This document shows, in pieces, positions 692 to 33,233 of a stretch of DNA of 42,031 nt. The notes under the pieces were generated by a model. That model made no database searches, was not told the origin of the DNA, and saw nothing but the letters and a program-made list of their open reading frames with translations. The stretch is from a candidate division WOR-3 bacterium (GTDB lineage Bacteria; Hydrothermota; Tepidihabitantia; Tepidihabitantales; Tepidihabitantaceae). The position numbers were made by a program, and so were the translations under genes. Every line of letters begins with the position of its first letter. Position 1 is the stretch's first letter. Location of the stretch: positions 1 to 42,031 of the forward strand of contig VGIR01000017.1 of assembly GCA_016867815.1 (NCBI GenBank), written 5' to 3'.

Positions 692-1063
692 CTACGGCGT
701 CGGCGCGGGGACGCTGAAGACGTCGGTGCGGATCGCGGCGAGGACCTCGGGTCTGAGACCGCGATTCTGCCACTTCTCAAGCAGCACCTGGGCCTCCCGC
801 GCGAGGGTCGGGCCGGAGATAGCCCGGCCGTGCGAGAGGCGGAAGAGCTGCCGGGCGAAGTCGAGGTAGAAGACGATGAACATCGTGTCGATGCCGCTGG
901 CGGAAAGCACCTGCTTCGTCTCAGTTTCCATCGAGCACAATGCGACCAGCGAAGCCTGGTAGCGGTCGCTCATGTCGGCATAGATACGGGCGGTTGTTTG
1001 CGCAGCGATCTCGGGCGAGTACTTCGCCTGCCAGCGCGAGAGTCTGCGAGTTACATCTGACAT
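692..1063 (-). CDS. Conserved-looking hypothetical protein, 123 aa
   Basis: No family recognised. The predicted protein (MSDVTRRLSRWQAKYSPEIA...) is mostly alpha-helical by composition, with many Ala, Leu, Arg and Glu residues, no signal peptide and no membrane segment, so it is probably cytoplasmic. The start at 1063 is chosen because AAAGGAGAG lies 6-8 nt upstream; an upstream in-frame start at 1111 would have to read through that site. A short GC hairpin (CCGGCC/GGCCGG, around 1078-1093) lies immediately upstream of the ribosome-binding site. It is convergent with the Asp-box gene and borders the 1.2-kb non-coding stretch holding arrays A and B. Confidence 0.65.
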   Translation of the reverse strand: MSDVTRRLSRWQAKYSPEIAAQTTARIYADMSDRYQASLVALCSMETETKQVLSASGIDTMFIVFYLDFARQLFRLSHGRAISGPTLAREAQVLLEKWQNRGLRPEVLAAIRTDVFSVPAPTP

Positions 1064-1262
1064 GGATACTCTCCTTTCCGGCCTTCCGGCCGGGGTTGCG
1101 GAACATACCATCTACTGGACTAGAGACTTGGAGGCGTCTCAACGTAACCTCCTATTCTGTTATCTGCCAAAGAAGGCGAAAATCACGGATCGACGTTGCA
1201 GGTCCTGACTTGGTTTCAGCGCCAAACGCGCCGATCTACCCAGGACTCGAGTCGGCAATAGG

Positions 1263-1598
1263 GGGGTCAATCCGGGAGTGACCTCGGGATTCAAGGCCGC
1301 GCTCACTGCTACTATCAAAGTGGCAGTCAATCAAGGACTTAACCCGGATTTCAGTTCCGGGCAGATCGCTGCGGCCAACGCGGGGTAGAACGCCGGAGTC
1401 AGCGCGGCAACCAAGGCCGCAGTTGACCGCGCCATCAGCGCCGCAGTCAGTCTGGGGTCGAGTTCGGTAGTCAGTTGCGCCATGATCTGTACTTTCACTC
1501 GCGCTTTCAGTCGCGAGATGAGTAGCGTAGTCAGTCGCCGGCCGAATTCGCGGTTAAGTGCTGAAGTCAGGGCCGAAGTGAACGCCGCGGTTCCGGTG
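1263..1598. repeat. Array A: degenerate 12-bp tandem repeat, 28 units
   Basis: Cutting the sequence every 12 bp from 1263 gives 28 consecutive units with no insertion or deletion. Counted by eye, position 7 is A in 26 of 28 units, position 5 is T in 22 of 28, and position 1 is G in 24 of 28. A typical unit is GCAGTCAGTCGC. Individual units are otherwise highly diverged. Confidence 0.85.
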
Positions 1599-1702: not shown

Positions 1703-1797
1703 GGAAGGAAGGCATCTGGCGGTCATCTATATGTAGCGGTAGACCGTTCTTCGACCACAATTCTGCCGCCCACTCCACGGCCCACAGGCCGCCTCCC

Positions 1798-2109
1798 CAG
1801 TTGCTTCCGCCGACACGGCGCGAGACACAACTGAACCCACAACCAGAGGTACTTCGCAACGAACATCGAGCCGAACAACGCCGCGAACAACTGCTGGAAC
1901 AGCAGTTGGTACGACTTCTCGAACAACGCGCGGTACAGCGACGGATTCAGGTCGAGATTCAGCTTGAGATACAGCTCGCTGTTCAGCTACGGACACATCT
2001 GCCAACGCAAGCGAACACCCAGCTAACGATACGTCTGCCGTTACTTCGTAAGGAACAACGTGGCGTGCTTCGCGAGACGCAACCGTGGCTTCGGCGCGAG
2101 GTCGTTTGA
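1798..2109. repeat. Array B: degenerate 12-bp tandem repeat, 26 units
   Basis: Cutting every 12 bp from 1798 gives 26 units in one phase. Position 7 is C in 25 of 26 units, usually followed by A, and position 4 is usually G or A. Typical units are GCCGAACAACGC and GAGATACAGCTC. The consensus differs from array A although the period is the same. Confidence 0.85.
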
Positions 2110-10841: not shown

Positions 10842-11546
10842 CTAGGTCCGAGCTATACTCTCGTCGACCAGCGCGGTGATTCGTTCGCGGAGTGTGGCCC
10901 GAACCGGCAGGGCTTCGATCCCGATGTCTGCCGTCCAGCGTTCCAGTTCCTCAAGCTTGGGCTTGAGCTTGTGCTCGTCCTTGCTGCGAGTGAGTAACCG
11001 CCAGAGCTTCCTCGCGTAGACTCGCGTCCAGGCCGCCTCGACTGAGGCCGGCTTGATGCCGGCGGACGAGAGCTCAGTCTCCACCAGCCGATTCAGCTGG
11101 CGTTGCGCTTCCTGGCCTCGCGCGTACGCCCGGACGCGGGCAAGTCGCTTGCGTACCGGCTCTGTTGTCAGTTTGGCCCGCAGGACGTGATGGTCGTACT
11201 TCTCGACCGCTCCGGCCACGCGCCACGACAGCTTCTTGGCGAGGCTCCGCACCCGCTTGTACCCGCGCTGCTCCAGCACGGTGGGCTGAAAGGTATAGGC
11301 ATTGAGCAGGTCGGCGATGTCGGCGAACGAGGCCCGGCACGCCCGCAGATAGTCGGCCACAAAGCCGAGAGAAGGATAGGGGGCCTTGCCAAGCTCCACC
11401 TTGCCGATGAGTTGGTGATTGCCTTTGCCTTGCCTCCCCATCAGTACCACTAGCTCCTGCTGGGTCATGCCTTCTCGGAACCGGAGTTCGCGCAGCCTCA
11501 ATCCCATTTCGGGCGTGAACCTGAACATCTCTTTCGACCTGCTCAT
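10842..11546 (-). CDS. XRE-family helix-turn-helix regulator, 234 aa
   Basis: Residues about 10-70 form a Cro/cI-type helix-turn-helix (GLRLRELRFREGMTQQELV, then GKVELGKAPYPSLGFVADYL). The remaining 160 residues are helical and rich in Arg, Lys and Leu; no family recognised there. It presumably binds DNA in the cytoplasm. The promoter and a long inverted repeat overlap directly upstream, with arms flanking the -10 box and touching the -35 box, which suggests autorepression. The -10 box ends 9 nt before ATG 11546, so the transcript would have almost no leader. A longer reading frame in another register is a shadow. It borders array C. Confidence 0.8.
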   Translation of the reverse strand: MSRSKEMFRFTPEMGLRLRELRFREGMTQQELVVLMGRQGKGNHQLIGKVELGKAPYPSLGFVADYLRACRASFADIADLLNAYTFQPTVLEQRGYKRVRSLAKKLSWRVAGAVEKYDHHVLRAKLTTEPVRKRLARVRAYARGQEAQRQLNRLVETELSSAGIKPASVEAAWTRVYARKLWRLLTRSKDEHKLKPKLEELERWTADIGIEALPVRATLRERITALVDESIART

Positions 11547-11584: not shown

Positions 11585-11627
11585 TGGCATGAATGGGGGA
11601 TAAGACGCGGTATCAGAGGAGGTTGGG

Positions 11628-12011
11628 GTCGCTATGCGAGTCGGCCTGGGGGTCGCTCCGGGGACGGCCCGGAGGGCGGTCTGCGGTGTTGTCTGGGAGT
11701 GAGTCCCGAAAGCCATTCAGACGGCTATTCTTGGGGTGATTGAGAAAGCGAAATGCAGGCCAGTTCGGAACGCGCTTCGGGACGCAACGCCCTGCGCTAC
11801 CCCGATTTCTGCTCTATCCGCTATCTGTTCAGCAGCCCCGAGTGTCGCCTAGCGGGTCACTTGTACGACAACCTGCGAGACTGCTTGGAGGGCGATTCGT
11901 TCGACTATCTACAGGGCAATTCGCGGAGCTGCGTGGCGGCTAGCAGTCGGGACTGGGGTGAGAGACGGAGGATTGGCTGTCCGGGCGACTATCCGTCCAT
12001 CCGTAGTTGCC
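11628..12011. repeat. Array C: degenerate 12-bp tandem repeat, 32 units
   Basis: Cutting every 12 bp from 11628 gives 32 units in one phase. Position 4 is a purine in 31 of 32 units, and position 5 is a pyrimidine in 28 of 32; position 1 is mostly G. Typical units are GCGATTCGTTCG and ACTGCTTGGAGG. It shares the period, but not the consensus, with arrays A and B. Confidence 0.8.
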
Positions 12012-32535: not shown

Positions 32536-33029
32536 CTTACACCTCTGGGTCCCGATCCGGAGATTGAGCCACAGAGCGCCTGGCGCGGCCTGGGAGGCCG
32601 CAACCAAACCCAGGCGAACCACGGGTGAACAGAGATGGACACAGATCCAGCCCAGTGCCGAACTCAAACGCTGTGTCGCCGGAGGGGCACTTTGCGGTGG
32701 TCTTCAGGACCCCGATCGCCTTGGCGGGCGCGCAAGTGTCGGTTCCAGAATTCGGCGCGGGCTAGGTCAACCGTCCGTCAGGAGTCGCCCGCCACAATGC
32801 CGGAACCGGGCTCCGCCATTTTGCAGTCTTACGCCTGCAATCTGCAGTCTGGATAGGCGGGCGAAACCCGCGGCTACGCCTTGACATCGTCTGGAAACAT
32901 GGGAAGTATCCATCATCTTGCCCACTTCACCGTTCGAGGTTTGGCTCATTCCCCCATCTTCTTGTTGCCGGCCCAGGGCAACCGTCTCGCTTCCCCCTTC
33001 TCTACTAGAAATCGTACTCGCAAAGCTAT

Positions 33030-33233
33030 ACATGGGACCTGGCAGCTGATTTGCAGGACGAATGGTAGAGCCTCAGCCGAGGGGACTTGGAAGGTCTGTT
33101 GCAGGGTGTCTCGCGGTTTGTCCTGCAGGCCGGTTTCTGCCGTGGTATGCGCGGTGAATTCGGAAGTGAGACGTACGGCCTGCTCAAGGGCGGGAAATCT
33201 GGTACTCGCACGGCCCCTGCTCCAGGTTGCCAC
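33030..33233 (-). repeat. Array D: weak 12-bp tandem repeat, 17 units
   Basis: Read on the minus strand in 12-bp units (typical CAGGACAAACCG, CGAGACACCCTG), position 8 is C in 12 of 17 units and position 9 is a pyrimidine in 14 of 17. This is the most diverged of the four arrays. Confidence 0.5.

Follow-up and report, generated by a model that had tools for sequence, protein, structure and literature searches.

Degenerate 12-bp tandem arrays beside genes for Adnaviria-type coat homologues in a bacterial order of candidate division WOR-3: probable DNA seats for a coat-fold protein

The major coat proteins of archaeal viruses in the realm Adnaviria hold DNA in a fixed measure, i.e., each coat dimer of SIRV2 (Rudiviridae) and AFV1 (Lipothrixviridae) takes up 12 bp of A-form DNA (PMC5517147) and each coat heterodimer of PFV2 (Tristromaviridae) takes up 12 bp (PMC7189273), and insertions and deletions (indels) of 12 bp are a common feature of rudivirus and lipothrixvirus genomes (PMC4390879). 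Here, we analyzed a stretch of 42,031 nucleotides (the window; positions 1 to 42,031 of contig VGIR01000017.1, GenBank assembly GCA_016867815.1) from a candidate division WOR-3 bacterium, in which two arrays of 12-bp units, array A and array B, lie near a gene for a homologue of these coats. The family to which this gene belongs resembles the coats of SIRV2, SSRV1, AFV1 and PFV2 in its sequence profile, in its predicted fold and in the expected 12 bp per dimer; however, whereas those coats are archaeal virion proteins, the genes found here are multi-copy and chromosomal, occur in every sampled member of a bacterial order and have no recognized virus genes with them, and, unlike in the SIRV2 genome, they are paired with 12-bp arrays. 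A 12-bp unit of DNA variation is also what the viral indels present in genomes packed by the coat fold, but those indels are single and mostly within open reading frames (PMC4390879), whereas the arrays have ~26 units and lie outside genes. CRISPR arrays and ordinary minisatellites share the short-period repetition, but the arrays described here differ from both in having no division into repeats and spacers, no link to cas genes that we could see, a fixed copy length and a constraint that depends on register. Iteron and partition-site arrays, i.e., tandem sites for replication or ParB-like proteins, have a fixed period and well-conserved units; the fixed-period tandem layout and, we infer, the binding of a protein are shared with the arrays under study, but the latter consist of very degenerate units and go with a protein of viral coat fold.

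Using a scan of the whole window for periods of 4-30 in 240-base segments, we observe that the top two signals are both of period 12, one at 1831 in array B (z of ~22) and one at 1261 in array A (z of ~21). The lag self-identity of array B peaks at 12, 24 and 36 only, and, when units of 12 columns are cut from 1798 onward, C occupies column 7 in 25 of the 26 units and column 10 in 23 (the units include GAGATACAGCTC at 1966 and GCCGAACAACGC at 1870). These results bear out an earlier note made from the sequence of this DNA, which had claimed a 12-bp period with a near-invariant C at column 7, and its choice of register holds as well, the column information being far from that of random phase choices. 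The claimed spacing of ~200 bp between the arrays agrees with refined limits of ~1794-2133 for array B (with copies alignable only to ~2106) set against those of array A, and the motif of array B is indeed unlike that of array A. Tandem Repeats Finder reports neither array, because the units are too diverged.

Searching the organism's own genome with array B returned 27 collinear matches with 65-100% identity, so that B-type units, as the earlier note had proposed to look for, are present at ~26 further places. What did not stand was the treatment of the two arrays as local curiosities, since both are members of a genome-wide and order-wide class of arrays that is tied to a protein family. Alignment of the 27 copies showed a head of ~65 bp followed by the array, nearly gap-free across ~390 bp, with substitutions prevailing and length fixed; a single copy is short of exactly one 12-bp unit. 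Variability across the copies depends on phase, with the informative phases being less variable (p = 0.0002). Copies were found in 6 of 6 genomes of the genus and in 0 of 55 other genomes, and almost all of them are accompanied, ~100 bp away, by another 12-bp array, of the A type, whose motif is different. The copies are mosaic, and many are close to contig ends. Within the head, at ~1765-1785, most copies read GGGGAGTGG and others CCCACTCC, as would result if 9 bp were inverted between CCG and CGG arms, and a second switch, G to C, is seen downstream, at GCCTGGGGGG/GCCTCCCC. In addition, an extra array with an apparent 24-bp period (AGAGCTGGGGGAGGAACTTGCCAG) lies beside A/B copies in two loci (L028, 1-182, and L030, 513-861).

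The gene beside array A, whose open reading frame is given by 695-1063 on the minus strand, is under purifying selection, with a ratio of non-synonymous to synonymous substitution rates (dN/dS) of 0.13-0.20 against four relatives. When the Protein Data Bank was searched with a profile of 29 family members, the best six matches were all Adnaviria coats (SSRV1, SIRV2, AFV1 and SFV1), headed by 6wq0 (E = 7.7e-7) and 3j9x (E = 1.6e-6), and the Pfam family Sulf_coat_C was matched by 22 of the 29 members (best E = 1.1e-6), with the window protein alone scoring 21.6-21.9 bits, under the 25.2 cut-off. The AlphaFold model of the window protein has a predicted local distance difference test score of 91, and its top Foldseek matches are 3j9x, 6wq0, 3fbz and 5w7g (probability 0.97-1.00); the match to 3j9x has a probability of 1.00 and a template modelling score of 0.66, with an E value of only 3.3e-3. 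By sequence, then, the product is a homologue of the Adnaviria coats, and its model predicts the four-helix coat fold. The family is present in 28 of 28 genomes of one candidate division WOR-3 order, nearly all of the genomes being draft assemblies, with 3 to at least 30 copies in each (up to 42 matches), and in 1 of the 119 other genomes searched in the phylum. Among the neighbors of the coat genes, only host-like surface proteins are recurrent, plus a sigma-factor-like gene in a sister clade (named from sequence); no recurrent virus gene was found among them, and IMG/VR held no relatives of the protein at the sensitivity used. On these grounds, and because the family occurs in all 28 genomes of the order, we rejected an Adnaviria virus or provirus.

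Arrays accompany coat genes in multiple genera. For example, among 100 coat genes of adequate length, 31 carry an array upstream and 9 carry one downstream at a distance of up to 650 bp (40 in total), compared with 4 arrays in a control set of 180 kb. The array-bearing genes cluster in the coat tree, together with the window coat, and, when periods 5-30 are compared upstream of coat genes, the mean excess has its maximum, alone or tied, at 12 and at the related periods 8 and 24, which are aliases through the factor 4. The coat-proximal upstream arrays (n = 32) comprise 26.4 +/- 2.6 units, and ~230 bp separate their ends from the coat domain. In a column-permutation test for dyad symmetry, the sign expected under a two-fold dimer, 15 of these 32 gave p < 0.05 (Fisher p = 5e-15; for array A, permutation p of ~0.03), and the symmetry axis runs through a base pair in 30 of them. 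The similarity of array motifs correlates with the identity of the adjacent coats (rho 0.47, Mantel p = 0.001), a correlation that persists when only pairs without detectable array homology are taken (rho 0.44, p = 0.001), and in two loci, L113 and L114, whose coats are identical over the compared domain, the arrays are not aligned by BLAST and have a motif correlation of 0.90. This tracking of coat sequence by motif, including the L113/L114 pair, is what cognate recognition predicts, the alternative being common descent of the arrays that went undetected. Elsewhere in the window, 32987-33192 gives a weak 12-bp signal, with no symmetry and with open frames, and is possibly a coding region.

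Table 1. Location of the coat-like genes, the 12-bp arrays and the head of the B element in the window
Feature	Position	Strand	Description
Coat-like gene	692-1063	-	Encodes a protein of 123 aa, homologous to the major coat proteins of Adnaviria (rudivirus/lipothrixvirus); under purifying selection
Array A	1256-1591	.	12-bp period, ~28 units with dyad symmetry; the coat-like gene lies ~200 bp downstream
Head of B element	1736-1800	+	Non-repeated, conserved in the alignment of 27 copies; CTATATGTAG ... CCACAATTCTGCCG ... CGGCCCACAGGCCGCC
Array B	1798-2109	.	~26 units of 12 bp, distal, without measurable dyad symmetry, one of ~27 genome copies
Helix-turn-helix/coat gene	10842-11546	-	Encodes an XRE-type helix-turn-helix protein whose C-terminal domain is coat-like; second such gene of the window
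Third 12-bp array	11623-12004	.	~32 units; the helix-turn-helix/coat gene follows directly downstream

The helix-turn-helix protein of the window has relatives with one or two coat-like domains, some of which match the coat profile with E values down to 3e-15, and hhalign of the window subfamily against the coat gave a probability of 84 (E = 8e-6). Since the first 50 Foldseek matches of the model cover the N-terminal domain only, assignment of the coat part draws on the profile matches and hhalign. An array is present directly upstream in 23 of 36 helix-turn-helix/coat loci, comprising most of those in genus g1 and several in other genera. One further stretch with the 12-bp period is very long (L224, 2206-2951, ~62 units), lies upstream of a helix-turn-helix protein of ~400 residues and may be two arrays. 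B elements are absent from the helix-turn-helix loci examined. The best motif match of array B is to one such locus, L235 (0.71-0.75), and, at only the ~95th percentile of random pairs, this pairing is not significant after multiple testing.

We propose, at a probability of about 0.6, that arrays A and B serve as DNA seats on which a protein of the Adnaviria coat fold assembles in register, because the adjoining genes are relatives of coats that hold 12 bp per coat unit. One coat dimer would occupy each 12 bp, with ~24-30 dimers lined up in register along one array, and these would wrap the array, probably as A-form DNA, into a short nucleoprotein filament beside the protein's own gene. For such wrapping of 12 bp by a dimer, the period and the dyad symmetry of the neighboring arrays are indirect indications only. 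Each paralogue or paralogue clade would read its own weak 12-bp motif, and this would account for arrays that share period and length but differ in motif. From that same combination the earlier note had inferred a shared constraining mechanism, which our results support; the coat-fold dimer on 12 bp is the proposal of the present analysis. As to purpose, autoregulation, or the nucleation of a larger filament or of packaging, seems likeliest.

Several results weigh against this proposal. The dyad symmetry of array B is not significant (p = 0.58 in the window, p = 0.17 for the pooled copies) and many B copies lack a coat gene in their vicinity, and it is because of this missing symmetry, and of the several copies without a coat gene, that we hold the general model at no more than the probability given above. 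Being distal, without clear symmetry and often without a coat gene, array B may be the target of a protein acting in trans or of another coat pair that is asymmetric. The period-12 excess is missing in several genera, and, at the threshold applied, the coat genes of several genera (G006, G007, G009, G012, G013 and G017) are without an array. The sister coat clade has the sigma-factor-like gene upstream (L120, L122, L148, L155, L198, L199, L202, L203 and other loci) and mostly lacks arrays, and some coat families have the array downstream instead of upstream (L173, L175, L176 and L177 in G021, where a tandem pair of coat paralogues occurs in several loci, and L192 in G018). In addition, the loci were drawn from lists ranked by similarity to the window protein, and the arrays are partly homologous and hence are not independent samples. 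Finally, the SIRV2 genome has no genome-wide 12-bp period, so viral coats do not need one, and we know of no report that a coat reads sequence in the known virions.

Of the other explanations, the one that survives best, although we consider it unlikely, is that the arrays are iteron-like operators for another DNA-binding protein, e.g., a separate regulator or a sigma factor, with the match to the 12-bp coat footprint being coincidental. The promoter-like location of the arrays and the fusion of coat-like domains to helix-turn-helix domains would both suit such operators, and the dyad symmetry would fit any two-fold binder; however, motif similarity follows the adjacent coat sequence whether or not the arrays are homologous, no recurrent regulator is found next to solo coat genes with arrays, the sigma-like gene marks the loci of the sister clade, which are mostly array-free, and a period of exactly 12 bp over several hundred bases is left unexplained. 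Less probable again are neutral or nearly neutral minisatellites, in which 12-bp slippage, as in the rudivirus and lipothrixvirus indels, would produce a pattern that is merely undecayed repetition. Some arrays do have clean whole-unit indels (one of 12 bp in L035, and two, of 24 and 12 bp, in the comparison of L210 with L211), but the B copies differ mainly by substitutions that avoid the informative phases at a fixed length, and slippage would lead us to expect neither the dyad symmetry nor the tracking of coat sequence. We give still lower odds to array B belonging to a dispersed mobile repeat, made up of head and array and in some cases a coat gene, that spreads for its own sake, as might be read from its ~27 mosaic copies, many of them near contig ends and several lacking a coat gene; neither a transposase nor terminal repeats were recognized, and in other genera, which are free of B, the class of 12-bp arrays occurs beside coat genes as unrelated sequences. 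Such spreading is in any case compatible with the seats that we propose.

That array B encodes a protein with a four-residue repeat is very improbable, since, although frame 1801-2109 (+) is open for 102 codons and its array part stays open in most B copies, unit composition accounts for the open frame, a stop-free frame is missing in 23 of 53 arrays, there is no Pfam, PHROG or NCBIfam match, and the ratio of non-synonymous to synonymous polymorphism (pN/pS) is 0.70-1.15 in all six frames. Array B thus does not behave as coding DNA; the codon-level selection that would have spoken against a periodic non-coding array is seen in no frame, and we reject a coding repeat on the basis of pN/pS and stops. 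A structured RNA was likewise rejected, as alifold gives the B alignment a modest energy (-8.3, vs -0.8 +/- 1.7 for shuffled columns) with 9 base pairs only, and the B element gave no Rfam match at the gathering score in any of eight copies. The window gives weak sub-threshold Rfam matches only, among them one to Acido-1 RNA at 2166-2231 (E = 0.04, 25 bits vs a gathering score of 50).

In the open-access library that we searched, we found no precedent and no report of bacterial or cellular relatives of Adnaviria coats, and precedent may exist elsewhere. We see an even chance that the genes and arrays make up a diversified chromosomal system of A-DNA-wrapping filaments, in which each paralogue, some of them with a helix-turn-helix domain, has a cognate array of ~26 seats, each of 12 bp and all in register. 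Such a system would be an A-form chromatin addressed by sequence, or the non-viral side of Adnaviria. That the genomes of a bacterial order each contain dozens of Adnaviria-type coat genes bears on the origin of that virus realm. If the proposed pairing of coats with arrays is true, then the coat fold can address DNA by sequence, these bacteria would offer a naturally occurring filament of A-form DNA whose length is defined, and the 12-bp indels of rudiviruses and lipothrixviruses would have a possible explanation.
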